Source of the DNA: Gallionellales bacterium GWA2_60_142
Lineage (GTDB): Bacteria; Pseudomonadota; Gammaproteobacteria; Burkholderiales; Gallionellaceae
Reading direction: 5' to 3'
DNA: 37,930 bases
Assembly (NCBI GenBank): GCA_001801085.1
Contig: MGWR01000059.1
Span: 1-37,930 of the forward strand
Shown here piece by piece: positions 9,349 through 26,193 of the stretch; position 1 is the stretch's first letter, and each line of letters opens with the position of its first letter. The translations under genes were made by a program, and so were the position numbers. The notes beneath the pieces are model-generated. The model did not search any database. It saw nothing but the letters and a program-made list of their open reading frames with translations, and had not been told where the DNA came from.

Positions 9349-9448
9349 AACTCCCCCTAGTTTTATTTATCTGTGAATAGTACCTCGTAGCCTGCCTATC
9401 GAACAATCAGTGAATTCTTATCTCAAGGAAAACAAGGTCGCTATGGCG

Positions 9449-10123: not shown

Positions 10124-10193
10124 GCTTCGCCTCCTATCGGTTGAGGGAACGAACGTGAAACCGGAATCCAGCGGGATGTGATTTTCTTGTAAG

Positions 10194-11396
10194 ATGCGCG
10201 GCATTATGGGACAAGCCAGACGAAAACGCATCCTGCTCGGCATCACCGGCGGCATCGCGGCCTACAAGGCGGCGGAGCTGGTGCGCCTGCTGGTCAAACA
10301 AGGCTTCGAGGTGCAGGTCGCGATGACCGAAGCGGCGACGCAATTCATCACGCCGACCACGATGCAGGCGCTGTCAGGCCAGCCTGTGCTACTGAACCAG
10401 TGGCAAGACGAAGCCGGCATGACGCACATCCATTCCAGCCGCGCCGCGGATGCCATCGTGATCGCGCCCGCCACGGCGGACTTCATCGCCAAGCTGGCGC
10501 ACGGCATGGCCGACGACCTGCTCTCCGCGCTGTGCCTGGCGCGCGACTGCCCGCTACTGGTAGCACCCGCAATGAACAAACAGATGTGGAGCAATCCGGC
10601 CACGCAGCGCAACGTGCAACAACTTGCAGCCGACGGTATCGCAGTGCTCGGCCCGGCCTGCGGATCGCAGGCCTGCGGCGAAGAAGGCATGGGCCGGATG
10701 CTGGAGCCGGCAGAACTGGCCGACGAAATTGTCGCCAGCTTCCAGCCCAAGCTATTGACCGGAATCAAACTGCTGATGACCGCCGGACCGACCTACGAGG
10801 CAATCGACGCGGTGCGCGGCATCACCAACCGCAGCTCCGGCAAGATGGGCTACGCAATCGCGCAGGCCGCGCGCGAAATGGGCGCACAGGTAACACTGGT
10901 GTCGGGCCCGGTCGCGCTGACGACTCCAGTCGGCGTGGAGCGTATCTCCGTCAACAGCGCACAGGAAATGTACGACGCAGTGAACCGACGCGCGGGCGAT
11001 GCGGACATCTTCATCGGCGTCGCGGCAGTCGCGGACTATCGCGTCGCCCATCCTGCCGAACAAAAAATCAAAAAATCCGCCGCGCCGATGACGCTGGAAC
11101 TGGTCGCCAACCCGGACATCCTCGCCGATATCGCCAGCCTGCCGAATCCGCCGTTCTGCGTGGGCTTCGCCGCCGAGAGCGAGCGGCTCGCCGAATACGC
11201 CGAACAGAAACGCCGCGCGAAGAAACTGCCGCTGCTGGTGGGCAACCTCGCGCAACAGGCGATAGGCAGCGACGACAACGAACTGATACTGTTCGACGAC
11301 AACGGCAACCACCCGCTGCCGCGCGCCGACAAGCTGACGCTGGCACGGCTATTGATGCAGCACATTGCACAACGATACAAAGGAGCGAAGCTATGA
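10194..11396 (+). CDS. coaBC: Bifunctional phosphopantothenoylcysteine decarboxylase / phosphopantothenate-cysteine ligase
   Basis: CoaBC makes 4'-phosphopantetheine in coenzyme A synthesis by joining cysteine to phosphopantothenate (CoaB) and decarboxylating the product (CoaC). The CoaC half shows the FMN-binding start [14 protein letters not shown], the PAMNKQMW motif and the active-site flap [10 protein letters not shown]. The CoaB half begins near [15 protein letters not shown] with SSGKMG and contains the KIKKS lysine cluster. Length is 400 residues from the ATG at 10194; ATG at 10206 (MGQARRKR) is an equally possible start, as neither has a strong ribosome site. The stop overlaps the dut start as ATGA, so the two genes form an operon, as in many proteobacteria. 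Confidence 0.96.
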
Positions 11397-11848
11397 AACA
11401 TCTCTCGGTGGACGTAAAAATTCTCGATCCTCGCCTGCATGAAAACATGCCGGGCTACGCGACCGGCGGTTCGGCCGGAATAGACCTGCGCGCCTGCATC
11501 GAAAGCAACACGATCATCCATCCGGGACAATGCGAACTCATCCCCAGCGGCATCGCCGTCCACCTCGCCGATCCCGGCTATGCCGCGATGATCCTGCCGC
11601 GCTCAGGCCTCGGACACAAACACGGCATCGTGCTCGGCAACCTGGTCGGCCTGATCGACTCGGATTATCAGGGACAAATCTTCGTGTCGCTGTGGAACCG
11701 CAGCCAACTCCCGTTCACACTGATGCCGATGGAGCGCATGGCGCAACTGGTGATCGTTCCAGTGATGCAAGCGAAATTCAACATCGTCGAAGACTTCCCG
11801 ATCAGCGAACGCGGCAGCGGCGGATTCGGCAGCACCGGTAAACATTGA
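11393..11848 (+). CDS. dut: Deoxyuridine 5'-triphosphate nucleotidohydrolase (dUTPase)
   Basis: dUTPase hydrolyses dUTP to dUMP and pyrophosphate, keeping uracil out of DNA and supplying dUMP for thymidylate. The 151-residue length is normal for the trimeric enzyme. All five motifs are present in order: [35 protein letters not shown] and the C-terminal [12 protein letters not shown]. The ATG at 11393 lies inside the coaBC stop (ATGA), with AAAGGAG upstream in the end of coaBC, so translation is coupled. A REP-like palindrome and a strong hairpin terminator follow. Confidence 0.97.
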
Positions 11849-11854
11849 CATCGC

Positions 11855-11880
11855 GGGGACACGGCGCGCCGTGCCCCTAC
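11855..11880. repeat. REP-like palindrome downstream of dut
   Basis: The core CACGGCGCGCCGTG (11860-11873) is a perfect palindrome flanked by GGGGA and CCCC, ending in CTAC (GTAG read on the other strand). The same core and end recur at 30505-30528, so this is a dispersed element. It starts 7 bp after the dut stop. Confidence 0.75.
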
Positions 11881-11930
11881 AGTGGAGCAGGATAGATTGA
11901 GCAACCAGAACACCCGAACCGACGCTCATG

Positions 11931-11959
11931 AAAAAGGCGACCTCCCGGTCGCCTTTTTT
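11931..11959. terminator. Bidirectional intrinsic terminator after dut
   Basis: A 7-bp stem (GGCGACC/GGTCGCC) with a 4-nt loop is flanked by A5 on the left and T6 on the right, so it can act on both strands. It ends the coaBC-dut transcript. Stem and tails are almost the same as in the hairpin at 18708-18734. Confidence 0.88.
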
Positions 11960-12012
11960 ATCGCCCCCTGCCCGCACATGACGGAACCGATGCGACAAAC
12001 CTGACATCGTCA

Positions 12013-12042
12013 TTGACACCGCCCGGCCACCTCCCCTACAGT
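12013..12042 (+). promoter_or_regulatory. Candidate sigma-70 promoter upstream of the structured leader
   Basis: A consensus -35 TTGACA (12013-12018) is followed after 18 bp by TACAGT (12037-12042) as -10. Transcription would start near 12050 and run into the hairpins at 12104-12187 and the small ORF at 12203. It lies in the roughly 350 bp between dut and that ORF, where I see no other gene. Confidence 0.4.
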
Positions 12043-12103
12043 TCACCCCGCTTGCAAATCCGCCGCAACGCACATCGCACCGCACGCACGGCGCGAGGCC
12101 ACC

Positions 12104-12187
12104 GGCAGATTCCCCGGAACAGGAGGTCTGGCGCAAGATGGGTTCCCGCATTAAGACGGGAAGCATCTGCCATTGCACGACCTGTTC
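12104..12187 (+). promoter_or_regulatory. Structured 5' leader with competing pairings, family unknown
   Basis: An inner hairpin has stem TTCCCG (12143-12148)/CGGGAA (12157-12162), extended by AGATG (12136-12140)/CATCT (12164-12168). An outer stem GAACAGG (12117-12123)/CCTGTTC (12181-12187) encloses it. An upstream arm GGCAGAT (12104-12110), followed by TCCC, can instead pair with ATCTGCC (12165-12171) and GGGA, which would break the inner hairpin. A purine-rich ribosome site and ATG follow within 15 nt. The layout suits a riboswitch, attenuator or protein-binding leader. It matches no riboswitch consensus that I can recall. Confidence 0.5.
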
Positions 12188-12202
12188 AGCCTAGGGGGAA
12201 TG

Positions 12203-12313
12203 ATGAATCACCACCTCACCGAATACGCACTTCGCGAATGCGATGTCGCCATGAATCTGCACGATGATCTGTTTAGTCAACAATCAATGCGATGCCGTTT
12301 GATTCGCAATTGA
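12203..12313 (+). CDS. Possible 36-residue ORF or start of a truncated gene
   Basis: An AGGGGGA ribosome site precedes ATGATG at 12200/12203. The reading frame begins MNHHLTEYALRECDVAMNLH and stops at 12313. The first half has the GC-rich codon use of the host, and the sequence becomes AT-rich from about 12270. The ORF may therefore be the beheaded start of a native gene cut by the accessory region, with the rest lost. It could instead be a genuine leader peptide for the structured element just upstream. I do not recognise the sequence. Confidence 0.35.
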   Translation: MNHHLTEYALRECDVAMNLHDDLFSQQSMRCRLIRN

Positions 12314-12356
12314 GTTTGAGCATTTAATCTAACTTTACAAATATGAGGTGAGGAAT

Positions 12357-13415
12357 ATGCAAACTGACATGCACTACTATGGAACCTATGCAATGGCCTG
12401 CGCAGCCGGTATCTTGCCTGCCGCTTCTCAAGTTATAGCTACTTCAGCTCAATACGTAGATGACTCGGATGTATTTCAAGAGAAGCTAGACGATGGGATG
12501 TACATCGAAGCTGCCGCCACAGCTCATCACCCAATCGACAAGAATAACGTTGACCATGTTGATCAATGCAAAATATGGGTGCCATTCCATTTCCTGCCCG
12601 GAAACCAAGGCGACACGCTGACTGAAAGACTTATCTGCAGGATGGATAGCCCATTAGCTCGGGAAATGGTAGATCACAATCTTACCTTTGCTGATTCCGG
12701 ATTTGCCCTTGAACTCATGGGTATTACAGCACACGTATATGCGGATACTTTTTCGCACTATGGTTTTTCAGGCATCAGCTCACCCTTAAACAAAGTTGAA
12801 GCAGACAGCATTCAGCTTAATGCAAAAGATCCGAAGACACTTCAGTACATAATTAACAAGTTCAGTGACTTCAAGGATAAATATATCGCAGGCAATATTG
12901 CCGACCTCGTTGCGCTAGGGCATGGCTCCGTTGGCACTTATCCTGACAGGCCATACTTGAACTGGAATTTTAAATATGAAGATGGTCGCACCTCTGGAAC
13001 ACGTGAGAATAAACAAACATTTCTTGAGGCCTGTCGCCAACTCCATCGAGTATTCACGGAATTTGTACAGAAAAAGCCAGAGTTTTTGGTAAAGGACATG
13101 CGCCGTGAGTTTGACGATATTGAGAAGCGCATTTCAAAAATACTGGCAACCGAAGGAGATATGGGCACTCGAATCAATGCATGGCAGCGTGCAGTAACTG
13201 GCGGCCACCTCTTCGACAATCCTGAAAAAAATAAAATTCCAGAATACGACAATGCATCCTTCGATGCAGATCGCAAGTTGCTCCCAACATTCAAACGTGA
13301 TGCAGTCGAAAGCGCCTCAATATTCCAATTCTTAAATGCTGCGAAGACCCATCGAAACTTTGTATTGGATGTGTTGCTTCCTAAGCATGAGCTTTCTGTA
13401 ATTCGTCGTATGTAG
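12357..13415 (+). CDS. DUF6765-like protein, possible metal-dependent phospholipase C/nuclease fold
   Basis: The product has 352 residues. I chose ATG 12357 (AGGTGAGG just upstream) over the in-frame GTG at 12348, because MQTDMHYYGTYAMACAAG is the N-terminus I recall for DUF6765 proteins. Conserved-looking polar sites are DMHYY near the start, the SAQYVDDS segment, AHHPID, and the central helix AHVYADTFSHYGFSG, which gives H-x3-D-x3-H. Such His/Asp sites resemble zinc ligands of the phospholipase C/P1 nuclease fold; that parallel is inference. There is no signal peptide or membrane segment, so it is probably cytoplasmic. The gene is clearly AT-richer than dut or purL, a sign of transfer. The next gene starts 111 bp downstream on the same strand. 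Confidence 0.7.
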   Translation: MQTDMHYYGTYAMACAAGILPAASQVIATSAQYVDDSDVFQEKLDDGMYIEAAATAHHPIDKNNVDHVDQCKIWVPFHFLPGNQGDTLTERLICRMDSPLAREMVDHNLTFADSGFALELMGITAHVYADTFSHYGFSGISSPLNKVEADSIQLNAKDPKTLQYIINKFSDFKDKYIAGNIADLVALGHGSVGTYPDRPYLNWNFKYEDGRTSGTRENKQTFLEACRQLHRVFTEFVQKKPEFLVKDMRREFDDIEKRISKILATEGDMGTRINAWQRAVTGGHLFDNPEKNKIPEYDNASFDADRKLLPTFKRDAVESASIFQFLNAAKTHRNFVLDVLLPKHELSVIRRM

Positions 13416-13526
13416 TCATGCAATGGATACTCACTTATGAAACAAGACATTATTTGAAATATATCTCAATTCTCACGCGAAAAATGTATTCCGAACCCCC
13501 GATAATTTACGTAGGAGATAACCACG

Positions 13527-14441
13527 ATGAAAGAACAAGACGTTCAGTCTTTAGAAATTCGAATTGAATTCGAACGTGGGGCAGGTGATCCAACGCGGAT
13601 TTTTTACTCAATGGCAGGCCTCATTGAATCTATTCAAGCAATTGACAAACATTTAGGTGCTTGCATTGGTGTCGGTGTTCGAACATCACTCGTTCTCGAT
13701 GATATCGAAGCAGCTTCATTGAAGGCCAAACTTAAATCAACAATCGAAGCCATCCCCGATGAACCATTGAAATCTGGCGATATAAAAAAACTGATTGGAC
13801 ACTATCTCCTGAAAGGAAAACATAAGATTCTCGATTGGTGCAGTGAACGAAACGAAATAACCTCACGGGAAGAAGTAAAACAGTTGGAAAACGAATTGCA
13901 ACTCCTTGCTGAGGACACAAACATAAAACAAATCCCAGCATATTCCTCTATAAATACTGCCAGCCTGCTCTCAGATATCGCTGAAATAAAGAACGCCCTA
14001 AACCACCTCAACTCCCAAGACAAGGCAACTCTACGCTCACCTGAAGGGCTGTCTCGATACAACCAAATGCTAGTCGTATCAGATGACATCGTTAGAGATA
14101 TCGTTACTAGAGAAACTCTTGCATCAACAAGTCAGAAAATTATTAAAGTTAAAAAACCAGACTACTTAGGTCAATCTCGTTGGGTGTTTAAATATTCAGG
14201 ACATCTTGTAGAAGCAAAAATTTCTGATGCTGATTGGCTATATAAATTTCAGTCAAAAAACGAACATCTTCAACCAGGAGACTCACTAAAAGTACTACTA
14301 CGGGAAGAAGTTTCTTATGGATATGACAGTGAAATAGTTCATACCGAATATGAAGTTGTTAGCGTATTGGGGGTGATATATGGCCCCATTCACGAACAGA
14401 AAACTATGCTATACAAAACCTCAGGCTCAGACTCGAATTAA
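13527..14441 (+). CDS. Uncharacterised 304-residue protein
   Basis: I do not recognise a named family. The start at 13527 has AGGAG 9 nt upstream. The N-terminal part (about 1-100) mixes strands and helices around RIEFERGAGDPTRIFYSMAG and SLVLDDIEAASLKAKLKS. The middle (100-200) is helical and charged, possibly coiled. The C-terminal ~90 residues are beta-rich, from WVFKYSGHLVEAKI to EVVSVLGVIYGP, as in a small barrel. No signal peptide, transmembrane helix or catalytic motif is visible. Low GC matches the gene before it, and together they form an AT-rich pair placed between dut and a restriction-modification gene, so a defence or stress role is conceivable. That rests on context only. Confidence 0.7.
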   Translation: MKEQDVQSLEIRIEFERGAGDPTRIFYSMAGLIESIQAIDKHLGACIGVGVRTSLVLDDIEAASLKAKLKSTIEAIPDEPLKSGDIKKLIGHYLLKGKHKILDWCSERNEITSREEVKQLENELQLLAEDTNIKQIPAYSSINTASLLSDIAEIKNALNHLNSQDKATLRSPEGLSRYNQMLVVSDDIVRDIVTRETLASTSQKIIKVKKPDYLGQSRWVFKYSGHLVEAKISDADWLYKFQSKNEHLQPGDSLKVLLREEVSYGYDSEIVHTEYEVVSVLGVIYGPIHEQKTMLYKTSGSDSN

Positions 14442-14568
14442 GTTTTGAGACGGGAAAACAATTGAGATAATGAAAAAACCAGTCTGACCCTTTTGGCTGC
14501 TCCTGTTATTCACACGTAACGAAAACCAAAATCACTTCCCCCAATTTTTAGCGTAATCGAGATATTCA

Positions 14569-17388
14569 ATGGCACTTTCCTGGAACGAAATCCGCAATCG
14601 CGCGCACGAGTTTTCCAAGCGCTGGGAGCACGAGACCTCGGAGGATGCCGAGGCCAAGGCGTTCTGGATCGAGTTCCTCAACGTCTTCGGCATTGATCGC
14701 AAGCGTGTCGCCAGCTTCGAGGAACCGGTCAAAAAACTCGGCGACAAACAGGGCTACATCGACCTGTTCTGGAAAGGTATGTTGCTGGTCGAACACAAGT
14801 CGCGCGGCAAAGACCTCGACAAGGCCTACACGCAGGCGCTCGATTACTTCCCCGGCATCAAGGAACGTGACCTGCCGAAATATGTGCTGGTGTCCGACTT
14901 CGCGCGCTTCCGTTTGTACGACTTGGAAGAGGGCACGCAAGAAGAATTCAAACTCGCCGACCTGCACAAGCGCATCAAGCATTTCGCCTTCATCGCCGGA
15001 TACCGCACGCAAACTATCGCGCCACAAAATCCGGTCAACATCAAGGCTGCCGAGCGTATGGGCAAGCTGCACGACGCGCTCAAGGCGGCAGGCTACGAGG
15101 GACACCCGCTCGAAGTGCTCCTGGTACGCCTGCTGTTCTGCCTGTTCGCGGAAGACACCGGCATCTTCCAGCCCGCCGGCGCGTTCCGCGCCTGGACAGA
15201 GGAGCGCACCGCGCCGGACGGTTCCAACCTCGGGCCGCAACTCGCGCAACTGTTTCAGGTGCTCAACACGCCCGAAAACAAACGCTCAAAAAACCTCGAC
15301 GAACTGCTCGCCGCGTTCCCCTATGTCAACGGCAAGCTATTCGAAGAAATGCTGCCCATCGCCGATTTCGACCTCACGATGCGCGAGGCATTGCTCGACT
15401 GCTGCGCACTCGACTGGAGCGCTATCTCGCCCGCGATCTTCGGCGCGCTGTTCCAGAGCATTATGGACGGCAAGGCACGGCGCAACCTCGGCGCGCACTA
15501 CACCTCCGAGGAAAACATCCTCAAGCTGATCGGACCGCTGTTCCTCGATGCGCTATGGGAAGAATTCAAACGCGTCAAAGGCAACAAGAACAAGTTGTTC
15601 GAGTTCCACAAAAAGCTGCGCACGCTGACCTTCTTCGACCCCGCCTGTGGCTGCGGTAATTTCCTGGTGATCGCCTACCGCGAACTGCGCAAGCTGGAAC
15701 TCGATGTGCTGCGCACCGTGCATGAAGGCCCCGGCTCACGCTTCCTCGACATCCATCAGGAAATCAGCGTGGACGTGGACCAGTTCTACGGCATCGAGAT
15801 CGAAGAGTTTCCGGCACAGATCGCGCAAGTCGCAATGTGGCTGATGGATCACCAGATGAACGTGCGCGTGTCGGAAGAATTCGGCATGTACTTCGCGCGC
15901 ATCCCGCTCAAGGCCTCACCGCACATCGTCCACGGCAACGCGCTCACGTTGGACTGGAACGACGTACTACCTGCGGAGCGGGCGAGTTATGTGCTGGGCA
16001 ATCCGCCGTTCGTCGGCGCGAAGTTCATGGACGACGCGCAACGCGAGGACGTTCAGCATGTGTTCGCGGACATCAAGAGCGGAGGGCTGCTCGATTTCGT
16101 CGCGGCATGGTATGTCAAAGCGGCGCGGTACATCACTCACCAACCGTGCGTAGGGGCGCAATTCATTGCGCCCCATATGGATGATGCGATGAATCCGGGC
16201 GTGATAAATCACGCCCTTACGAAGCTTGCCTTCGTCTCCACCAACTCCATCACCCAGGGGGAACAAGCCGGCGTGCTATGGGGCTGGCTACTCGCGCAGG
16301 GCATCCGCATCCATTTTGCCCACCGCACCTTCCAGTGGAGCAACGAGGCGCGCGGCATGGCGGCGGTGCATTGCGTCATCATCGGTTTCGGCGCGCACGA
16401 CATCGAGAAGAAGACCATCTATGAATACGAGGACATTCGCGGCGAAGCACACGCCGTCGCCGCGCGCAACATCAATCCCTATCTGGTGGATGCGCCGGAT
16501 GTGAACATCTCTAATCGACGCCATCCCATATCACGAGTGCCGGAAATCGTTTTTGGCAACATGCCAAACGATGGAGGACATCTATTGATGACTGATTCTG
16601 AAAAGCGCGAACTACTCCTGAAGGAGCCAGCCGCTAAAAAATTTATTCGCCCTTTCATGAGCGCGAAAGAATTTATCAACAACGAACCGCGATGGTGTTT
16701 GTGGCTGGTAAATGTTGCCCCCCATGAACTGCGACAACTACCGGAAATTTCGCGGCGCGTGCAGGCCGTAAAGGATTTGCGCGAAGCCAGTGATCGTCAA
16801 ACAACGCGCGAATTGGCTGCTTATCCAACATTGTTCGGAGAGATTCGCCAGCCTACATCTAACTACATTCTCGTACCGCGACATTCATCGGAGAGCCGTG
16901 CTTACATCCCTTGTGGCTTTTTCGATACAAATCAAATTGTCGCCGATAGCTGTCTCGCCATTCCAAACGCCACGCTCTACCACTTCGGCATTCTGACCTC
17001 GATAATGCACATGGCTTGGGTACGTTACACCTGCGGACGAATCAAAAGCGATTATCGCTACTCGGCTGGTATCGTCTACAACAACTACCCGTGGCCTGAC
17101 GAACCCACCGACAAACAACGCGCATCCATCGAAGCCGCCGCCCAAGCCGTGCTGGATGCCCGAGCGCAATTCCCGCAAAGCTCGCTCGCCGACCTCTACG
17201 ACCCGCTCACCATGCCGCCCGCGCTTGTCAAGGCCCACCAGACCCTCAATCGCGCCGTGGACGCCTGCTACCGCAAGGCCGCATTCACCAGCGACGCGCA
17301 ACGCGTAGAGTTTTTGTTCGAGCGCTACCAGCAATTCACCAGCTTATTGCCGCCGGATAAATCTCCCAAGAAAAGAAAAGGCCCATAA
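14569..17388 (+). CDS. MmeI-like type IIL restriction-modification enzyme (single-chain nuclease-methyltransferase)
   Basis: The 939-residue protein resembles MmeI (about 920 residues), in which one chain cuts DNA and methylates adenine. The N-terminal nuclease has the D-x9-E-x-K site at D65, E75 and K77 within YIDLFWKGMLLVEHKSRG. The methyltransferase has motif I DPACGCGNF (357-365) and motif IV NPPF (478-481). The target-recognition domain follows (about 640-830), then a helical C-terminus after NNYPWP. Two oddities are a 24-residue in-frame insert encoded by an inverted REP doublet (residues 528-551), and a recognition domain that is much AT-richer than the rest. No full-length specificity or methylase partner is needed or seen. 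The start MALSWNEIR matches the family; its ribosome site is weak. Confidence 0.92.
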   Translation: MALSWNEIRNRAHEFSKRWEHETSEDAEAKAFWIEFLNVFGIDRKRVASFEEPVKKLGDKQGYIDLFWKGMLLVEHKSRGKDLDKAYTQALDYFPGIKERDLPKYVLVSDFARFRLYDLEEGTQEEFKLADLHKRIKHFAFIAGYRTQTIAPQNPVNIKAAERMGKLHDALKAAGYEGHPLEVLLVRLLFCLFAEDTGIFQPAGAFRAWTEERTAPDGSNLGPQLAQLFQVLNTPENKRSKNLDELLAAFPYVNGKLFEEMLPIADFDLTMREALLDCCALDWSAISPAIFGALFQSIMDGKARRNLGAHYTSEENILKLIGPLFLDALWEEFKRVKGNKNKLFEFHKKLRTLTFFDPACGCGNFLVIAYRELRKLELDVLRTVHEGPGSRFLDIHQEISVDVDQFYGIEIEEFPAQIAQVAMWLMDHQMNVRVSEEFGMYFARIPLKASPHIVHGNALTLDWNDVLPAERASYVLGNPPFVGAKFMDDAQREDVQHVFADIKSGGLLDFVAAWYVKAARYITHQPCVGAQFIAPHMDDAMNPGVINHALTKLAFVSTNSITQGEQAGVLWGWLLAQGIRIHFAHRTFQWSNEARGMAAVHCVIIGFGAHDIEKKTIYEYEDIRGEAHAVAARNINPYLVDAPDVNISNRRHPISRVPEIVFGNMPNDGGHLLMTDSEKRELLLKEPAAKKFIRPFMSAKEFINNEPRWCLWLVNVAPHELRQLPEISRRVQAVKDLREASDRQTTRELAAYPTLFGEIRQPTSNYILVPRHSSESRAYIPCGFFDTNQIVADSCLAIPNATLYHFGILTSIMHMAWVRYTCGRIKSDYRYSAGIVYNNYPWPDEPTDKQRASIEAAAQAVLDARAQFPQSSLADLYDPLTMPPALVKAHQTLNRAVDACYRKAAFTSDAQRVEFLFERYQQFTSLLPPDKSPKKRKGP
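16150..16221. repeat. Inverted REP doublet inserted in frame in the MmeI-like gene
   Basis: Unit 1 starts GTAG at 16150 and forms GGGGCGCAAT/ATTGCGCCCC around a 2-nt centre (16153-16174). Unit 2 is inverted, GGGCGTGAT/ATCACGCCC (16197-16216), and ends TTACG. The whole element is 72 bp, exactly 24 codons, so the reading frame is kept. The same family occurs at 30457-30529. Confidence 0.85.
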
Positions 17389-17435
17389 AATGACGGTTAA
17401 CCTGTGTTTTTTACAGTAGCGCAGAGGGGTAAGGG

Positions 17436-17891
17436 ATGAAAGGAGTTGTCACTGCCGATGAAGCTCGCGTAATTGCTGCGACACCCAAGAAATTGCACGG
17501 ACTGCATGGCCAGTTTGCTTTTCAAATGCGCAACAACCATGCGGGGCACTTTATCGCCTCCGCACGCGTTGAAGATGCCGATGGCGCACTCTTGCCCGGA
17601 TTGATCGTAGAGGCGGAATACAAGGCCGCTCTTACCCTGAACCGCTGCCTGTTTTTGTTCACCCTATTCACGCAAAGGCACGGCGCGAAGCTGCGGGCCT
17701 ACCAGCTGGAAATCACCCCGCCGAATAAGCTCACACATAACGAACCCGGCAATATCATTCACGGAGCCCATGAACATTGGGGTGACAAGGCTATTGCGCT
17801 GCAAGGATTCGGGTGCGATGATTACTCGCGTGGATTTGCGCATTTCTGCCAACAAATCAACCTGACTGCCGTACAACTGGAACTGCCATGA
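17436..17891 (+). CDS. Uncharacterised 151-residue protein coupled to a DUF1828-like gene
   Basis: This encodes 151 residues starting at ATG 17436, 48 bp after the MmeI-like gene and preceded by a purine-rich GGGGTAAGGG. The central FAFQMRNNHAGHFIASARV and the region YQLEITPPNKLTHNEPGN followed by HEHWGD suggest a compact alpha/beta protein with His-rich conserved sites. It weakly recalls DUF6978 proteins, but I would not rely on that. There are no membrane or signal segments. Its stop overlaps the start of the next gene as ATGA, so the two are translated together. They may belong to the restriction-modification operon or form a separate two-gene module. Confidence 0.65.
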   Translation: MKGVVTADEARVIAATPKKLHGLHGQFAFQMRNNHAGHFIASARVEDADGALLPGLIVEAEYKAALTLNRCLFLFTLFTQRHGAKLRAYQLEITPPNKLTHNEPGNIIHGAHEHWGDKAIALQGFGCDDYSRGFAHFCQQINLTAVQLELP

Positions 17892-18640
17892 ACTGCCAAC
17901 TGATTGCCGACAAATTCGCTTTTGAGTGCACTCCGCTCTTGACCACCAAGGGCGAGGAAGCATTCGAACTCGGCACACCATTTGCCTTTGCCGATGGTGC
18001 GGCTATCAACGTGTATGCCATTCCGCATGGCGATACGCTGGAATTGACTGATAACGGGGATACCATGCTGCATCTCACCAGCATGGGCATGACTGCCTGG
18101 CATAAAAGCAAATTGGCATCTTTGCAGCGTAGTATCGAACCTCATGGCCTTACTTTTACAGAGCAAGGCGAAATCAAGACTTGTGGAAAGGCCGACCATG
18201 CAGCTTTGCTGATTGCACAATTCATTAGCGGAATTCTTGCTGTAGCTCAGATGGAGCGTGCTGCCTTGGGTGTGCCGGACAAGGCCGACAATTTGGCTGA
18301 TGAAGTGGAGATGTTGTTGAGGAATTGGAAGCCCCAACTCGCACTTGTGCGCACCCCTCATGTAAAGGGCATTTCGGGTCACGAATACGGTTTTGATTTT
18401 ATGCTTGGCGATGAATTAGTTGATGTCCTTACACCACACCATAACGCCACTGGGGGCGTTATGCGTAAACTGGGAGACGTGCTAAGCGGCTCAGGTCAGC
18501 ATAAGGCCTTGGTAATTGTAGATGACCGAGTAGACCCTGGACGTGCTGAAACAGAATTGCAGATCATTGCAATGCTGGCTCGCGCCATGCCACTTTCAAA
18601 ATTAATGGCAAAGCACCCGACAACACCGCAACTGCACTAG
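17888..18640 (+). CDS. DUF1828-like domain protein, 250 residues
   Basis: The N-terminal third reads PFAFADGAAINVYAIPHGD followed by LELTDNGDTMLHL, which fits the DUF1828 pattern (a 'dG..i.vy' strand pair followed by 'LTDnG'). The rest continues with a helical segment and a conserved-looking strand ending KALVIVDDRV. DUF1828 proteins have no proven activity and are often found with phage or mobile genes. Translation starts inside the stop of the 151-residue gene (ATGA), so the two products probably act together. A bidirectional hairpin terminator follows 68 bp after the stop. Confidence 0.65.
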   Translation: MNCQLIADKFAFECTPLLTTKGEEAFELGTPFAFADGAAINVYAIPHGDTLELTDNGDTMLHLTSMGMTAWHKSKLASLQRSIEPHGLTFTEQGEIKTCGKADHAALLIAQFISGILAVAQMERAALGVPDKADNLADEVEMLLRNWKPQLALVRTPHVKGISGHEYGFDFMLGDELVDVLTPHHNATGGVMRKLGDVLSGSGQHKALVIVDDRVDPGRAETELQIIAMLARAMPLSKLMAKHPTTPQLH

Positions 18641-18707
18641 GCATAACCTATAAAGAGTTAAAAGCAGCTAAAGGGGGCAGCTTCGCAATCCTTCAAAGCA
18701 ACCGAAC

Positions 18708-18734
18708 AAAAAGGCGACCGTCGGTCGCCTTTTT
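18708..18734. terminator. Bidirectional intrinsic terminator after the DUF1828-like gene
   Basis: The stem GGCGACC/GGTCGCC with a 3-nt loop is flanked by A5 and T5. It can stop the plus-strand genes ending at 18640. On the minus strand it can serve the purL 3' copy ending at 18755. The stem is the same as in the terminator after dut. Confidence 0.88.
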
Positions 18735-18746
18735 ATTCCCTGCCTA

Positions 18747-18879
18747 AGCTACTCTCAACCCACCCACTGCCTTGCGTTCTGAAACATCCTCAGCCAAGCC
18801 CCGCTCTCTTGCCACTCGCCCGGATACCACGAGTTCTGTACCGCACGGAACACGCGTTCCGGGTGGGGCATCATGATGC
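18747..18879 (-). pseudogene. Detached second copy of the purL 3' end
   Basis: This segment repeats 20636-20766, the last 41 codons and stop of purL plus a few flanking bases. I count seven substitutions, all transitions, and one 2-nt indel outside the coding part. Six substitutions are silent and one changes Asn to Ser; the stop (18755-18757) is kept. Homology ends abruptly at 18879. The pattern shows that it was once a working purL end from the ancestral or a related allele, now cut off from its gene by the hipBA insertion. The 288 bp between 18640 and hipA hold only this and the terminator at 18708. Confidence 0.9.
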
Positions 18880-18928
18880 CCAATGAAGCGTCTCCAATCA
18901 GCCTTGCAACAATCCCAGCGCCGACCGT

Positions 18929-20167
18929 TTACTCAAAGGCATAAGGATTCATGAACTGCCGCCCCCACATGCCCTGCCGTTCCAGTTGCGTCAATCCAGC
19001 CTGGTCGCAAACCTCATCCCAGTTCGTTCTGATTTGCTTGATCTGATGGTCGATGATTTCCTGCGCCTGCTTCGGGTTCAGCATGAAGCTGTGTGCGGCG
19101 GATTGGCAGACTTTCAATTGCGAGAGGTTGTTGTCGCCGCAGATCTTCATGGCTTGCGAGGCTTCGTTCCCGGCGCGGCTTTGCGGGCAGAGGTCGTAGG
19201 CGGGCGTGAGCGCGAGATGCTTGCCATCCCAGAAGGCGGCGTGGTTCCTTGCGTGGTCGTCCGTGTTGCCGCAGAGGATGTTGAATACGATGCGACCGAA
19301 CAGTTCGCGCAGCGTTTCATCCGGGCGCAGAAAGCGGTGGCGGATGATCTCTGCGAGGTCTTCATAGCTGGCGTAGCGCGCGAACATTTCGTCTAGCTCC
19401 AGCAGGGTGAGCGCAGATACCATCATCTTGCGTTGCCAGCCTGCTTCGCCAGCGACGCGGTCGAAACGTTCGACCATGAGTACATCCTTGTTCAGCGCGG
19501 TCTTCAGTTCGACCGGGGCGACGTTCAGCCCGACCAGATGCGCCAGCCGCATGGCGACGAATTCTGCTTTGACGATGTTGTACAGGTCGGTGCTCAAAGA
19601 GAATTTCGCGACATACTGTCTGTCTGCCGTTTCGACATTCGCTTTGGGGCGCGCACCGCCGATGGAGGTGCCGTGCTGTATCGCGGCAGCCAGTTCCGGG
19701 CTGATCGGTTGGCCGTTGACGATGCGCTCCGTCGATTCCTGCAATTGCGCCAGGGTGACAGGCTCGCTCATGCGAGGCTGATAGCTTGTTGGCGAAAGCT
19801 GAAAATCCAGCGCACCAATGCGATTCGATCCGGATTCGAGCAAGCAACTCAGTTCGTCCAGGTCTTCATTGCGCTTGCCGCCCGCCCGCTTGAACATGAG
19901 TACGCGCCTGCCCCATGCATCCGGTGCGGCATCGCGCAGGCAACTGGGCATGCTCATGCCTTGCGGCAAAGGCAGTATGCCGCTTTGCAATGGCAATTCC
20001 GGACTATAGAGCGGGACGCTGTTTGCGCGTTCGAGATAGCTCCGACCGTAATTGAACACCAGCGTGTTGCCGTCCTTCGCCAAGCGCCCCGCCACCACAG
20101 GCTGCACTTCGCCGGGCAACCATACCCAGACATAGGCTTCCTGATAGCGCTGCTCAGAAGTCATCAT
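18929..20167 (-). CDS. hipA: HipA-family serine/threonine kinase toxin
   Basis: HipA toxins phosphorylate targets such as glutamyl-tRNA synthetase and cause growth arrest or persistence; the exact target here is unknown. The 412-residue chain has the Gly-rich loop GTSIGGARPKA (166-176) with the likely autophosphorylated Ser168, a candidate ATP Lys at 188, the catalytic loop NTDDHARN (301-308, with D303) and the metal-binding YD at 324-325. All key kinase residues appear intact. The ATG at 20167 overlaps the antitoxin gene by 14 nt. The pair sits between purL and a second copy of its 3' end, so it was probably acquired by insertion. Confidence 0.93.
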   Translation of the reverse strand: MMTSEQRYQEAYVWVWLPGEVQPVVAGRLAKDGNTLVFNYGRSYLERANSVPLYSPELPLQSGILPLPQGMSMPSCLRDAAPDAWGRRVLMFKRAGGKRNEDLDELSCLLESGSNRIGALDFQLSPTSYQPRMSEPVTLAQLQESTERIVNGQPISPELAAAIQHGTSIGGARPKANVETADRQYVAKFSLSTDLYNIVKAEFVAMRLAHLVGLNVAPVELKTALNKDVLMVERFDRVAGEAGWQRKMMVSALTLLELDEMFARYASYEDLAEIIRHRFLRPDETLRELFGRIVFNILCGNTDDHARNHAAFWDGKHLALTPAYDLCPQSRAGNEASQAMKICGDNNLSQLKVCQSAAHSFMLNPKQAQEIIDHQIKQIRTNWDEVCDQAGLTQLERQGMWGRQFMNPYAFE

Positions 20168-20492
20168 TCACCATGCGTGTCGATTTGCGTGCGGCTTTGG
20201 GAAGCAAGGACAGCTTTTCCCGGTAGTGGGCAAGTTTCACGGCCAGCGCTTTAGGATCATCGGCCATGAGCGGTACGCCGACGATGGCGGCCACCTCGAA
20301 TGCGGCACCGATAGAACAACCGGCATCGCCCTCTTCGATCCGCTTCAGCAAAGCTTGAGAAATGTTGGCGCGCATCGCCAGCTCTGCGATGGTCATCTTG
20401 CGCTCGATGCGGGCGACCCGAATCATCATACCCATCAGCGCAAGTGCATCACTCGTGTATCGCGATATCGCTCTGGAGACCGGCTTTGCCAT
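20154..20492 (-). CDS. hipB: HipB-like XRE-family antitoxin and repressor
   Basis: This encodes 112 residues with a helix-turn-helix of the Cro/C1 type, in which MTIAELAMRANISQALLKRIEEG is the recognition unit. It should bind and neutralise HipA and repress the operon. The antitoxin comes first and overlaps hipA by 14 nt, the classical hipBA order. The Lys/Arg-rich C-terminal tail is probably flexible. A strong promoter with an overlapping palindrome lies just upstream. Confidence 0.88.
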   Translation of the reverse strand: MAKPVSRAISRYTSDALALMGMMIRVARIERKMTIAELAMRANISQALLKRIEEGDAGCSIGAAFEVAAIVGVPLMADDPKALAVKLAHYREKLSLLPKAARKSTRMVNDDF

Positions 20493-20510
20493 ATTAAAAC
20501 CTCATAAACG

Positions 20511-20546
20511 AGCCGCGAAGATACATTGCGGCTTATTTATAGTCAA
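20511..20546 (-). promoter_or_regulatory. hipBA promoter with candidate HipB operator
   Basis: On the minus strand, TTGACT (20546-20541), a 17-bp spacer and TATCTT (20523-20518) form a good sigma-70 promoter. A palindrome AGCCGC (20511-20516)/GCGGCT (20528-20533), with 11 bp between, straddles the -10 box, as expected for autorepression by HipB. The hipB ATG follows 19 nt later with an AGG ribosome site. Confidence 0.65.
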
Positions 20547-20588
20547 TAACAAAAAAGCAAGCACACTCCGGTGCCGCCCCTGCTCCCA

Positions 20589-20619
20589 CAAAAAAAGAGG
20601 CACCTCGAAAAGTGCCTCT
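20589..20619 (-). terminator. Intrinsic terminator of purL
   Basis: On the minus strand an 8-bp stem AGAGGCAC/GTGCCTCT with an 8-nt loop is followed by a run of seven T. It lies 23 bp after the purL stop and separates purL from the hipBA promoter. Confidence 0.88.
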
Positions 20620-20641
20620 CCTGGGTTCACGAGCCAGCTAC

Positions 20642-23600
20642 TCAACCCACCCACTGCCTTGCATTCTGGAACATCCTCAACCAAGCCCCGTTCTCCTGCC
20701 ACTCGCCCGGATACCACGAGTTCTGCACCGCGCGGAACACGCGTTCCGGGTGGGGCATCATGATGCTGAAACGGCCGTCCGGGGTGGTCAGGCCGGTCGC
20801 GCCCTGCGGCGAGCCGTTGGGGTTCAGCGGATAGATCTCTGTGGGCCGGCCAGTGTTGTCCACGTAGCGCAGCGTCACCAGTTCCTGCGCGGCCTTGAGC
20901 TTCTTCGGGCTGCCGAAGTCGGCGTAGCCTTCGCCGTGCGCGACGACGATGGGCATGCGGCTGCCTTCCATGCCGTGGAAGAAGATCGACGGCGTTTTCT
21001 GCACCTCGACCATCACGAAACGCGCTTCGAACTGCTCGGACTGGTTGCGTGAGAAGTGCGCCCAGTTGTCTGCACCGGGGATGATTTCGTGCAGGTTGCT
21101 CATCATCTGGCAGCCGTTGCACACGCCCAGCGCGAAGGTGTCGCTGCGCTGAAAGAATGCCGCGAACTCGTCGCGCGCGCGCGGGTTCAGCAGGATGGAC
21201 TTGGCCCAGCCCTCGCCCGCGCCCAGCACGTCGCCGTAGGAGAAGCCGCCGCAGGCCGCGAAGCCCTTGAAGTCTTCCAACTTGACGCGGCCGCTGATGA
21301 CGTCGCTCATGTGCACGTCCACCGCGGCGAAGCCGGCGCGGTCGAATGCGGCGGCCATTTCCACATGACCGTTGACGCCCTGCTCGCGCAGGATGGCGAT
21401 CTTGGGACGGTTGCGCAGCAGCGCGGGCGAGACGTTCTCGTTGAGATCGAAGGTCAGCTTCGCGTGCAGGCCGGGGTCTTTCACGTCGAGCAGGCGGTCG
21501 AATTCGGATTGCGCACAGGCCGGGTTGTCGCGCAGCTTCTGCATGTGGTACGTGGTCTCGGACCACAGGCGTTGCAGGTGCGCGGCGTTCTCGCTGTAGC
21601 GCTTTTCGCTGCCGCGCGAGATTTCAATCATGCCGGTCTGGTTCAGCGTGGCGATCTTCTGCACGCTCTTCAGGCCGAGCTCGCGCGCCAGTTGCTGGAT
21701 GTGGGCCAGGTCGCGGTTGCGCACTTGAATCACCGCGCCGAGCTCTTCGTTGAACAGTGCGCGCAGCGTGTCGCCGTGCAGCTCTTCCAGTTGGATGTCG
21801 AGGCCGACGTGCGCGGCAAACGCCATTTCGCACAACGCGACGAACGCGCCGCCGTCGGAACGGTCGTGGTAGGCCAGCAGCTTGTCTTCCGCGTTCAGGC
21901 TCTGGATCAGTTCGAAGAACGTCTTGAGCAAGGCCGCATCGTCCACGTCGGGTGCTACATCGCCGACCTGCTTGTACACCTGCGCCAGCGCGGAGCCGCC
22001 CATGCGGTTCTTGCCCTGACCGAGGTCGATCAGCAGCAGCGTGGTGTCGAGGTCGGCGACCAGCTGCGGCGTGAGCGTATGGCGCGCGTCCGGGCTGGGC
22101 GCGAACGCGGAGACGATCAGCGACAGGGGTGCAGTGACGGCCTTGTTCCTCTTGCCATCCTTCCAGGTGGTCTTCATCGACATCGAGTCCTTGCCGACCG
22201 GGATGCCGATGCCGAGTTGCGGGCACAGCTCCATGCCGACCGCGCGCACGGTGTCGAACAGCGCGGCGTCCTCGCCGTGGTGTCCGGCTGCGGCCATCCA
22301 GTTCGCCGAGAGTTTGATGTCGCCGATTTTTTCGATGCGCGCGGCGGCGATGTTGGTAAGCGCTTCGCCCACCGCCATGCGGCCCGATGCCGGGGCGTTA
22401 ATCAGCGCGAGCGGCGTGCGCTCGCCGATGGCAAAAGCCTCGCCGCGGTTGGTGTTGTAGCCCATCAACGTGACGGCCACGTCGGCCACCGGCACTTGCC
22501 ACGGGCCGACCATCTGGTCGCGCGCGGTCATGCCGCCCACGGTGCGGTCGCCGATGGTAATCAGGAAGTTCTTGTTCGCCACCGCAGGCAGACGCAGCAC
22601 GCGCTCGACCGCTTCCGCAATCGGCACGCCGCTGCAATCGAACGACGACAGGCGCGGCGTTTCGCGCTTGACGTTGCGCGTCATCTTGGGCGGCTTGCCG
22701 AGCAGCACAGACAGCGGCATATCCACCGGGTCGTTTTTGAATTCCTTGTCGTGCACGACGATCTGGTCTTCGTCTATCGCGGTGCCCACCACGGAGAACG
22801 GGCAGCGCTCGCGCTCGCACATCGCGCGGAACTCGTCCAAGCGCTCCGGCGCGATGGCCAGCACGTAACGCTCTTGCGACTCGTTGCACCAGATTTGCTT
22901 CGGCGACATGCCGGTCTCGTCCAGCGGGATCTTGCGCAGCTCGAAATGCGCGCCCTTGCCGCCGCCGTGCACCAGCTCCGGCAGCGCGTTGGACATACCG
23001 CCCGCGCCGACGTCGTGGATGGACAGGATGGGGTTGTTGTCGCCCAGCTGCCAGCAGCGGTCGATGACTTCCTGCGCGCGGCGCTGCATCTCGGGGTTTC
23101 CGCGCTGCACCGAATCGAAGTCCAGATTCTCGGCGTTGGCACCCGTGTCCATCGAGGACGCCGCGCCGCCCCCCAGACCGATCAGCATGCCAGGGCCGCC
23201 GAGGTGGATCACCAGCGCGCCGGTCGGCAGGTCGTGCTTGAAGGTGTGCTCCGCCTTGATGTTGCCGACACCGCCCGCCAGCATGATGGGCTTGTGGTAG
23301 CCGCGCATCTCGCCACTGACGTTCTCCTCGAACGTGCGGAAATAGCCGGTCAGGTTAGGACGGCCGAATTCGTTGTTGAACGCCGCGCTGCCGATCGGGC
23401 CGTCCAGCATGATCTGCAGGGCGGTGACGATGCGGGAAGGCTTGCCGTACTCGGCTTCCCACGGCTGCGGAAAACCGGGGATATTCAGGTTCGACACCGA
23501 GAAACCGCTCAGGCCGGCCTTGGGCTTGGAACCGCTGCCGGTCGCACCCTCGTCGCGGATCTCGCCGCCGCTGCCGGTGGCCGCGCCCGCGAACGGCGCG

Positions 23601-24523
23601 ATGGCGGTCGGGTGGTTGTGCGTCTCGACCTTCATCAAGATGTGCGTCATCTCGTCGCTGAACGCATAGCTGCCGTCGGCGCGCGGGTAGAAGCGCTCGA
23701 TGCGCGCGCCCTCGATCACCGAGGAGTTGTCGGAATACGCGACCACCGTGCCCTGCGGGCTGACCTTGTGGGTGTTGCGTATCATGCCGAACAGCGACAT
23801 GTCCTGCGCCTCGCCGTCGATCACCCAGTCGGCGTTGAATATCTTGTGGCGGCAGTGCTCGGAGTTCGCCTGCGCGAACATCATCAGCTCGACATCGGTC
23901 GGGTTGCGCTTCAGCTTCTTGAAGTTCTCGACCAGATATTCGATCTCGTCGGCAGACAGCGCCAGCCCCATATCGCGGTTGGCCTGCGCCAGCGCCTTCG
24001 CGCCGCCCTTGAGCACGTCCACGGTCTCCAGCGGCTGCGGCTTGCCGTGCTGGAATATCTTCTTGGCCGCAGTATCGATATTGTCGAGCACGGTCTCGGT
24101 CATGCGGTCGTGCAGCAGCGGCAGCACCGAAGCCAGCTCATCCTTGCTCAAGCGCTTGCCGTTCTTGCTCGTCAGGTAAAACACCACGCCGCGCTCGATG
24201 CGCTGCACGCCGTGCAGGCCGCAATGCTGCGCGATGTCGGTCGCCTTGGTGGACCAGGGCGAGATCGTGCCGAGACGCGGCACCACCAGCAGGCGCTGGC
24301 AGTTCGCCGCATTCGCGGGCTCACCCGCAGACTTGTCGAGGCCGAGCACGCGGCCCAGCAATTTGGCTTGCGGCTTGTTCAGCGTCTCGCTCTTGAGCGC
24401 GCTGAAATAGCAGTGACGGGTGTCCGCGACGACCACGCCGGGAGCGGTTTCGCTCAGCGCGGCGCGCAGTTTTTCGAGACGGAAGGCAGACAGGGCGGAG
24501 GAGCCGAAGGAGACTAGAAACAT
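20642..24523 (-). CDS. purL: Phosphoribosylformylglycinamidine synthase (large, single-chain type)
   Basis: PurL converts FGAR, glutamine and ATP to FGAM, the fourth step of purine synthesis. The 1293 residues match the fused proteobacterial form: N-terminal PurS-like part, two AIR-synthase-like ATP domains (visible sites include [20 protein letters not shown] and [11 protein letters not shown]), and a C-terminal glutamine amidotransferase. The nucleophile is C1135 in GVCNGCQMM, with the His-Glu pair at 1258/1260 in HPER. The frame is intact to the stop. The last ~130 bp are duplicated at 18747-18879, so this 3' end may have arrived with the hipBA segment and replaced the native one. Confidence 0.97.
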
Positions 24524-24548
24524 GGCGTAGACCGTGAAATTAAATTCG

Positions 24549-24573
24549 GGGCGCGATTATACTATGCGCGCCC
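24549..24573 (-). promoter_or_regulatory. purL promoter -10 inside an inverted repeat
   Basis: A perfect TATAAT (24561-24556, minus strand) lies in the 11-nt loop of a 7-bp inverted repeat GGGCGCG/CGCGCCC. A second small palindrome (GGCAG-c-CTGCC, 24580-24590) lies where the -35 would be, and no good -35 box is seen. The arrangement suggests a repressor site on the promoter. The purL ATG is 33 bp beyond the -10. Confidence 0.5.
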
Positions 24574-24645
24574 TGTTCGGCAGCCTGCCAGTAATGACGT
24601 AGAATTTCCTGAACAGACGCCAAAGACATCGAAGCATTCAAGACT

Positions 24646-24723
24646 GTAGGGCGGAAAAGTGTAGCGCCTTCCGCCTTTTAACTTGATTCTTGGCGGATAA
24701 CGCCTGCGGCTCATCCGCCCTAC
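24646..24723. repeat. Inverted REP doublet (GTAGGGCGG family) between purL and nnrD
   Basis: Unit 1 (24646-24675) begins GTAGGGCGG and folds back through CCGCC. Unit 2 (24692-24723) is inverted and ends CCGCCCTAC. The same two units, in the opposite overall orientation, form the element at 29421-29510. It fills the gap upstream of nnrD; the open frame from a TTG at 24690 crosses unit 2 and is not likely to be translated. Confidence 0.85.
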
Positions 24724-24770
24724 GAAGATGCGGTAGCGTGATGCAGCGCCCAACAACAACATTCACCACC

Positions 24771-25634
24771 ATGACAAAAATGAAGACACGACGCATTCCC
24801 ACCCTGACCGCAAGACAAGTCATCCCCCCTTTCCCCAAACGCCAGCGCGACAGCCATAAGGGAAACTTCGGCACCGTCGCCGTGATAGGCGGCGCTTCCG
24901 GCATGGTCGGCGCACCGCTGATGGCGGGCCGTGCAGCACTCAAGCTGGGCGCGGGCTGCGTGCATGTCGGGCTGCTGGCGGAAAACGCGCCGGTCGTCGA
25001 TTTGATGCAGCCGGAGCTGATGCTGCATAGCGCCGCCGAAGCGCTGAAGCTGCCCGGCGTGACTGTGCTGGCCATCGGCTGCGGACTGGGCCGCAGCCTG
25101 GCCGCGCAGAAGCTGCTGCACGACGCCGTGAACAGCCCGGCCGCGCTGGTATTGGATGCCGACGCGCTGAACCTGCTCGCGCAACGCCCCGACCTGGGTA
25201 CGGTCGTGCGCGCCCGCAAGACCGCGACCGTGCTGACGCCGCATCCCGGCGAGGCCGCGCGCCTGCTGGGCATCAAGACAGAAGAGGTGCAGGCGAACCG
25301 CGTCGCGGCGGTGCAGCAACTGGCGCAGAAATTCGGCGGCAGCGTGGTGCTGAAAGGCGCGGACAGCCTGTGCGCAACCAGCGACGGCAAGCTCTACGTC
25401 AACCAGACCGGCAACCCCGGCATGAGCGCCGCCGGCATGGGCGACGTGCTGACCGGCATGATCGCGGCCTTCCTCGCGCAAGGCATGAGTGCGGACAACG
25501 CGCTGCTGCTGGCCGTGCACCTGCACGGCACGGCGGGCGACGAACTGGCGAAGCAGCAGGCGACGATAGGCATGAGTGCGACGGAGGTGACCGAGTGGGC
25601 GAGGTGGCTGTTAAATCAATGGGTAGAAAAATAG
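24771..25634 (+). CDS. nnrD: ADP-dependent NAD(P)H-hydrate dehydratase (stand-alone NnrD)
   Basis: NnrD repairs hydrated NADH and NADPH by ADP-driven dehydration. The protein is the YjeF C-terminal (ribokinase-like) domain alone; the epimerase NnrE is not fused. Typical sites are KGNFGTVAVIGGASGMVGA, VLDADALNLLA, TPHPGEAARLLG and the phosphate-binding GMSAAGMGDVLTGM near the C-terminus. I chose ATG 24771 (287 residues); ATG 24780 is also possible and neither has a clear ribosome site. The frame is open upstream through a REP element, which I exclude. A REPIN and a transposase gene follow directly. Confidence 0.92.
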   Translation: MTKMKTRRIPTLTARQVIPPFPKRQRDSHKGNFGTVAVIGGASGMVGAPLMAGRAALKLGAGCVHVGLLAENAPVVDLMQPELMLHSAAEALKLPGVTVLAIGCGLGRSLAAQKLLHDAVNSPAALVLDADALNLLAQRPDLGTVVRARKTATVLTPHPGEAARLLGIKTEEVQANRVAAVQQLAQKFGGSVVLKGADSLCATSDGKLYVNQTGNPGMSAAGMGDVLTGMIAAFLAQGMSADNALLLAVHLHGTAGDELAKQQATIGMSATEVTEWARWLLNQWVEK

Positions 25635-25641
25635 AAAACCA

Positions 25642-25736
25642 TCGCGTGCAGGGCACGTTCCTACGAGGGGTCGCGGCATGAAAGCGATACATGCACAAGC
25701 ATCGAGCCCCGCCGTAGGAGCGTGCCCTGCACGCGA
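25642..25736. repeat. REPIN: inverted REP pair overlapping the transposase start
   Basis: The unit at 25713-25736 begins CGTAGGAGCG and ends GCACGCGA. The unit at 25642-25665 is its reverse complement with one mismatch in 24 bases. About 47 bp lie between them, and the start codon of the REP-associated transposase (25678) is inside. The GTAGGAGC start resembles Pseudomonas-type REPs. Confidence 0.9.
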
Positions 25737-26193
25737 CAGCCACCCTGGACATCGATCCTTGCGCAAGGGCCGCGCCTCCGTCCCAAACGGCGTTTACCTT
25801 GTTACCACCATCACACTCGAACGCAATAGATTGTTCACCGATTTCGCCGTGGGCTGTGCGGCCGCCAGATGCTTCGAGGATGCCGACCTTCTGGGAGATG
25901 CCAGAATGCTGGCCTGGGTGCTGATGCCCGATCACGCGCACTGGCTATTGCAATTGGGCGAACGCGATCCGCTGAAACGCGTCGTCAATCGTTTGAAGTC
26001 AGCCAGTGCAAGGCATGTGAACCGCGTCCGTGGCACATACGGTGCAATCTGGGCGAAGGCGTTTCACGATCACGGTTTGCGCGGAGAAGAAGACCTGCGG
26101 GACACGGCTCGCTATGTGGTCGCCAATCCCTTACGTGCCGGGATGGTTAACCGCGTTGGAGATTATCCGTTCTGGAATGCGGTCTGGTTGTAA
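25678..26193 (+). CDS. REP-associated tyrosine transposase (RAYT, TnpA-REP)
   Basis: RAYTs are single-copy Y1 HUH transposase relatives that act on REP hairpins, nicking single-stranded DNA through a tyrosine. The 171-residue product has the HUH pair H86-A-H88 in VLMPDHAHWLL and the likely nucleophile Tyr146 in DTARYVVANPLRAG. The usual N-terminal block is RKGRASVPNGVYLVTT. The first ~20 residues are encoded by the REPIN, so either translation begins at 25678 (GAGGGG upstream) or at a non-ATG codon nearer residue 28. No IS ends flank the gene, which fits a domesticated RAYT and not an IS200/IS605 transposon. Confidence 0.9.
   Translation: MKAIHAQASSPAVGACPARDSHPGHRSLRKGRASVPNGVYLVTTITLERNRLFTDFAVGCAAARCFEDADLLGDARMLAWVLMPDHAHWLLQLGERDPLKRVVNRLKSASARHVNRVRGTYGAIWAKAFHDHGLRGEEDLRDTARYVVANPLRAGMVNRVGDYPFWNAVWL

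Follow-up and report, generated by a model that had tools for sequence, protein, structure and literature searches.

The stretch analysed here, called the window below, is the whole of contig MGWR01000059.1 (37,930 nucleotides) from Gallionellales bacterium GWA2_60_142, assembly GCA_001801085.1. Its subject is a hipBA toxin-antitoxin (TA) pair that lies between two copies of the 3' end of purL. Read along the minus strand, the order is purL, a hairpin, hipB, hipA, a 49-bp joint, a second purL end, and a terminator of the GGCGACC type. The intact purL gene (20642..24523, minus strand) is an open frame of 1293 residues; of 250 genomes sampled from the order, a set that includes four of this genus, 248 contain purL relatives matched by its 3' part. 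The near copy of the purL 3' end (20641..20766) lies within this gene and is followed by a terminator-like hairpin and T run (20590..20618, read by eye), which is not of the type usual in the genus. The gene hipB (20154..20492), for the predicted antitoxin, shows HTH_3 and other helix-turn-helix matches and a weak match to couple_hipB below its cut-off; hipA (18929..20167), for the predicted toxin, matches HipA_C at 4.4e-51 and Couple_hipA at 5.7e-09. A HipA kinase-family toxin gene thus adjoins a helix-turn-helix antitoxin gene, as in type II HipBA systems, and the two are a predicted TA pair, toxicity and neutralisation being assigned by prediction. After the hipA stop comes the joint (18880..18928), which leads into the detached purL copy (18754..18879); this copy is recognised from the direct repeat and from empty sites in relatives, and its stop codon is intact. 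Behind it, at 18704..18738, lies the inverted repeat GGCGACC..GGTCGCC, the purL terminator of the genus, as also found behind the single purL ends of two relatives, G040 and G009. No integrase gene was found in the 1.8 kb interval, either among its open frames or by protein family scan.

A first-pass annotation, made from the letters of the window, had noticed the repeated purL end, and measurement confirms it. Segments 18754-18879 and 20641-20766 form a direct repeat of 126 nt at 94% identity, in the same orientation and 1,887 bp apart; with flanking bases it covers 133 bp at 93.2% and reaches +6 beyond the purL stop (positions within purL are counted from the stop codon). Over 125 aligned bases the near and far copies differ by seven mismatches, all transitions and six of them silent, and both stops are kept. 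When seven transitions were placed at random, a mean of 2.04 were silent, and six or more were silent in 0.24% of 5,000 trials. The bias is therefore present, and points to selection, but as a sign of two alleles it is weaker evidence than the annotation had claimed, and it was dropped as proof of them, because the working copy would collect mostly silent changes after any duplication. A 19-mer of the repeat occurs only at these two window positions (chance mean 0.02), and across the 71 contigs of the window genome the repeat is likewise confined to these two places. Five families of direct repeats of at least 40 nt are present in the window; four have a short period (57 or 261 bp), and the purL repeat is the only exception. 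No attC core motifs were found in it.

Relatives show what the site looked like without hipBA. Window segment 18708-18890, which holds the detached copy and the terminator, aligns unbroken at 85% to positions 12441-12619 of L040, the G040 locus, where there is a single purL end. Segment 18652-18890 aligns likewise unbroken to a single purL end and flank in G027, at 77%. In G009, the closest relative compared (93% over purL), there is again a single purL end, and the window flank 18666-18737 follows about 150 bp behind it at 89%. The empty site predicted by the annotation therefore exists, unbroken in two relatives and as two separated parts in the third, and its view of the far copy as the former native purL end is borne out, since relatives without hipBA join a single purL end to the same flank. 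Because the detached copy and its terminator are continuous with a single purL end in relatives, the far copy marks the original junction; judged by these alignments, it stands where purL formerly ended, and hipBA separates this old end from the working purL. In the empty relatives there is one copy only of the long direct repeat that flanks the cargo here. G001 tells the same story, since the gene after its purL fragment belongs to the family found directly behind purL in G017, G059, G043 and G115.

The annotation had further supposed that the inserted segment brought hipBA, a terminator and a new purL end. One part of this is probable: the hairpin after the near copy resembles, by eye, that before hipBA in Sideroxydans STC_76 (L116) and not the usual one of the genus, so that hairpin and hipBA probably came together as one foreign block. 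The new purL end, on the other hand, is unsupported. Over the final 125 bases of purL the near copy agrees with G009 at 120 positions, the far copy with G009 at 117, and the far with the near copy at 118, whereas the hipBA carriers G037, G035 and G106 agree with the near copy at only 100, 103 and 106. Import of the near end from these sampled carriers was accordingly rejected, their match to it being 80-87% against 96% for G009. A detached copy closest to the present purL, which the annotation had named as telling against its account, is in fact what is seen among the alleles compared (118 against 117), by one base, and one base settles nothing. G103 offers a weak hint of imported DNA, in that its last 150 bp are 91% identical to G111 and G007 against 88% to its sister G055.

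The arrangement recurs at purL within the genus. The 76 genomes yielded 66 purL loci whose 3' end is intact (G052 gives two), and 61 of these have at least 300 bp downstream. A detached purL end lies behind the intact gene at 8 of the 66 loci: the window genome (G000), G001, G021, G028, G035, G037, G038 and G103. A ninth case is Sideroxydans sp. STC_76, with HipA at 88% and a fragment that contains an internal gap. In G028 a third, worn purL end with terminator lies 9.1 kb downstream, making an array of three purL ends. The scan of the 250 genomes of the order, which would miss fragments as short as that of G035, returned a second purL-end match only in G000, G001, G037 and G061, the last being weak and on another contig; at this sensitivity a second purL end is uncommon outside the genus. 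Pieces of the purL end at contig edges (G102, G108) and a 55-bp internal purL piece (G059) were left uncounted, and the contigs of G106 and L115 end before any far joint. A search for the purL end on viral contigs gave three pattern matches, none of them confirmed. The silent bias of detached copies, 6/7 in G000 (p 0.0024), also has a low p in G001, G028, G037, G038 and G103, and not in G021 or G035. The G052 assembly carries two different complete purL ends, each on its own contig (L042, L043); a TA pair follows one of them and not the other, and this bin may mix two species.

The left and right boundaries of the fragments behave differently. Detected starts scatter within purL, at -35 in G035, -77 in G021, -98 in G028, -124 in G000, -134 in G103, -169 in G038, -275 in G037, -535 in G001 and -554 in L116. 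Right edges in the eight genus cases all fall between -41 and +45, around the stop or the terminator. The aligned repeat at these eight loci is 36 to 534 bp long, so its length varies and is of the order of 100 bp. From the last gene to the fragment there are 2 bp in G037, 14 in G038, 37 in L116, 43 in G028, 49 in G000, 242 in G001 and 303 in G035, and in G103 the two overlap by 19 bp. The G021 fragment is 11,951 bp downstream of the higBA stop, and other genes fill the space between.

A predicted TA pair is found directly behind purL at 10 of the 61 loci, some members being assigned by protein cluster only. The pair is hipBA in G000, G035, G037 and G106, higBA in G021 and G038, Phd/YefM with a ParE-like toxin at one G052 locus (G052a), and Phd/YefM with MqsRA in G010. 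In G028 and G105 a nucleotidyltransferase gene is accompanied by a partner of no known family; gene order and a motif suggest that the two are an MNT/HEPN-like pair. A TA pair (hipBA, higBA or the nucleotidyltransferase/HEPN-like type) stands next to purL in 6 of the 8 loci with a detached end. Further pairs are seen at two of these loci: a TA-like Gp49/HTH pair behind the second purL end of G028, and in G035 a second TA pair flanked on both sides by the end of hipA (60 bp, 80%). The presence of hipBA at purL requires three changes on a quickly built PurL tree with 62 rows, and G105, with its other TA pair, falls among hipBA carriers, so that the purL site appears to gain, lose or swap cargo. 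Across all 76 genomes, HigB scores above cut-off in 43 and HipA_C in 42; the carriers are related.

The same layout occurs at some other genes. A first set comprised the best 80 of at least 581 confirmed HipA loci from named genomes, 70 of them resolvable. Direct repeats bracket hipBA at 9 of the 70, compared with 114 of 10,013 intervals placed at random within these loci, giving a binomial probability of 1e-7, or of 1e-4 for 6 of 67 when two purL loci and one dispersed repeat (L188, whose repeat is a member of a dispersed family) are excluded; the loci are not fully independent. In L154, from a Nitrospinota assembly, the repeat consists of the last part of thiC with its terminator (208 bp, 98.6%), in the order seen at purL. 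L186 has 225 bp of the end of a Rep/UvrD-type helicase gene (93%), with hipBA convergent, and in L130 hipBA lies between copies of an 85-bp tRNA-Phe sequence. Bracketing repeats in L124, L126 and L171 were assigned to no gene 3' end. A second set of 39 HipA loci (35 resolvable; at least three genomes, G029, G021 and G001, are common to both sets) contains three bracketed loci, L213 with an intergenic repeat of 70 bp, and L222 and L223, both of one genus, with tRNA-Arg. Among 29 resolvable HigBA loci of the order, 5 are bracketed, compared with 0 of 27 in the TPMT control. The clearest HigBA case is the array in L261/L295, which reads yaeQ, higBA, yaeQ' (120 bp, 88%), a ribbon-helix-helix/PIN pair, yaeQ'' (253 aligned, 87%), so that gene ends separate two TA pairs. 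The repeat in L260 takes in an upstream region and the 5' part of a frame read from its sequence as AraC-like, L258 and L245 resemble other element types, and the repeat in L264 has no gene assignment. Gene-end duplication is also seen at another gene of the genus: in G029 (L055), the 3' part of a 936-residue gene is duplicated at distances of 3726-4290 and 6094-6658 bases behind purL (565 bp, 95.9%), flanking a 329-residue frame.

On balance, we lean towards the view that the hipBA layout came about by an insertion that duplicated a long, variable stretch of the target gene's 3' end. This view is favoured because of the repeat, the empty sites, the recurrence at purL with different cargo, and the cases at other genes. 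Incoming DNA carrying a gene end and a TA pair would recombine with the resident gene end on one side, and on the other side would join illegitimately at a variable point inside the same gene; the gene would stay whole and the old end would be pushed downstream. Such a route, anchored in the gene end, is likely, given right edges that end where homology would end and left edges that are scattered. Cargo between repeats of about 100 bp is expected to be deleted unless its loss were punished, which suggests retention by addiction: the TA pair would make deletion between the repeats costly, so that the layout persists. A wider proposal, which we put forward only tentatively and with some doubt, is that TA pairs make up a group of mobile cassettes free of integrases, which are carried along with the 3' ends of core genes (purL, yaeQ, thiC, rep, tRNA genes) and insert through them. 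With every arrival a working end would be supplied and the old one left as a scar, addiction would prevent deletion, and arrays would record successive arrivals.

Several observations weigh against insertion with long duplication, or narrow its reach. Most hipBA loci are not bracketed (61 of 70 in the first set and 32 of 35 in the second), and hipBA at four other sites in the genus (L102-L105) shows no bracketing repeats. One of these stretches, L103 of G021, holds a perfect tandem repeat of period 85 bp at 13612-14001, which continues beyond the analysed stretch. HigBA compared with TPMT alone gives a Fisher p of 0.052, the control of 27 loci being too small. At purL, G001 and G103 (2 of the 8 loci with detached ends) have no recognised TA pair, their cargo being a gene with a spermidine-synthase domain in the first, and in the second a Sel1-repeat gene with two genes also found behind purL in G111; conversely, no purL fragment was detected with the TA pairs behind purL in G105, G052a and G010. 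Identity along purL of the window genome shows no step, and an imported purL end is thus not seen in the window; if the near end was imported, the donor was a close relative. Finally, tRNA genes, REP-like repeats or recombinase-linked repeats are involved at several of the bracketed hipBA or higBA loci, and these fit other element types.

These last cases lead to a serious rival, in which an integrative element attached at the purL 3' end, replaced that end, and later lost its integrase, so that a decayed or cis-mobilizable element left hipBA between two attachment copies. Integrative elements typically show direct repeats of a gene 3' end, and such repeats around cargo, with the target gene left whole, are shared with the loci described here. 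For the hipBA layout we consider this account possible but unlikely; its strongest ground is the tRNA cases, where tRNA 3' sequence brackets hipBA in L130, L222 and L223, and the purL fragments near -125. Those of G000 and G103 start near GCATCATGATGC, a palindromic motif at about -125, and by eye those of G028 and G035 may also start there, with later gaps. This shared start, another point against the variable joint, is the best remaining argument for what may be a preferred break point or a recombinase core. Replacement of the integrase type, which the annotation had suggested, nevertheless predicts one crossover point. The nine detected starts all differ, though four may share the motif, and the fragments of G038, G037, G001 and L116 reach well upstream of it. 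A single attachment site for all purL cases is thus unsupported, and one for the subset near -125 is possible. Pfam scans of the interval proteins, which did not take in every frame, gave no phage-type integrase and, of related proteins, just an rve-domain transposase in the 12.7 kb interval of G021; no phage-type integrase is named for 61 further proteins encoded near purL among the families listed (25 of 50 and 25 of 101).

A single ancient duplication might instead have served as a landing pad, with TA pairs later exchanged between the ends by homologous recombination and the copies kept alike by gene conversion. The alignments that run as single blocks from purL through hipBA (77.7% for G037/G035, 90.6% for G035/G106) or through the MNT/HEPN-like pair (77% for G028/G105) look as if the arrangement were old, and the detached copies of G000, G001, G037 and L116 are closest to their own purL, as conversion would give. 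We nonetheless regard this history as improbable, with 58 of 66 loci in the genus lacking a fragment, with stop-to-fragment distances and fragment starts that vary even among hipBA carriers, and with the yaeQ and thiC cases showing the same layout arising elsewhere. Misassembly of a metagenome bin is conceivable in a genome of 71 contigs and 80.5% completeness, most of whose relatives are drafts too. A 174 kb contig of G037 and Sideroxydans STC_76 both show the same order of purL, hipBA and purL', with other joints, which makes such an error very improbable.

Insertion with long target duplication has precedents. Excerpts of two papers (PMC3874152, PMC3031569) describe restriction-modification systems as inserting with long, variable target duplications, citing Nobusato et al. 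2000 and Furuta et al. 2010, and excerpts of two others mention the pattern for Helicobacter pylori (PMC1643837, PMC4978471). As far as these excerpts go, the likeness includes cargo between direct repeats of the target whose length is of the order of 100 bp and variable, an empty site in relatives, absence of a mobility gene, and an addictive cargo. The differences are that the cargo here consists of TA pairs, that the same gene end is struck repeatedly in one genus, and that gene ends form serial arrays. Since its cargo is HipA/HipB, the window locus works like the restriction-modification pattern but is not filed in that class. Homology-facilitated illegitimate recombination has been proposed, in an excerpt of PMC5361080, for displaced immunity genes in type VI clusters of V. 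cholerae. There, as here, a conserved anchor holds one side and the other side is joined illegitimately, the old part is displaced downstream, and serial arrays result; what is displaced there is immunity genes, whereas here it is a fragment of an ordinary core gene, and the anchor step here is inferred. Among the matches listed, whose titles and abstract openings were available, no paper was recognised as describing TA cargo at a recurrent core-gene end with arrays. How small TA pairs spread between chromosomes without a mobility gene is an open question. If insertion with long duplication is the answer, each arrival leaves a readable scar, the order of events can be read, and a route anchored in the gene end becomes testable. 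It would also link TA pairs to the long-target-duplication insertions known for restriction-modification genes, and addictive cargo suggests why such unstable repeats persist.

Past the detached end and its terminator, the window carries a DUF1828 gene and a type IIG MmeI-like restriction-modification gene (14569-18640). At the same place in the sister genome G009 (L039, 10761-13385) lies a gene for an 874-residue protein with a 1047-bit match to the PADLOC candidate family PDC-S06, and the interval beyond the purL terminator looks like an exchange site for defence genes. A stretch of 233 bp at 12011-12243 is 93% identical to G009 despite differing neighbour genes; Rfam at gathering scores returned no family for positions 9000-26000 of the window, this stretch included. 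Farther away, a minus-strand frame of 1770 residues contains, at 2248-3029, a 57-bp unit in at least ten tandem copies.

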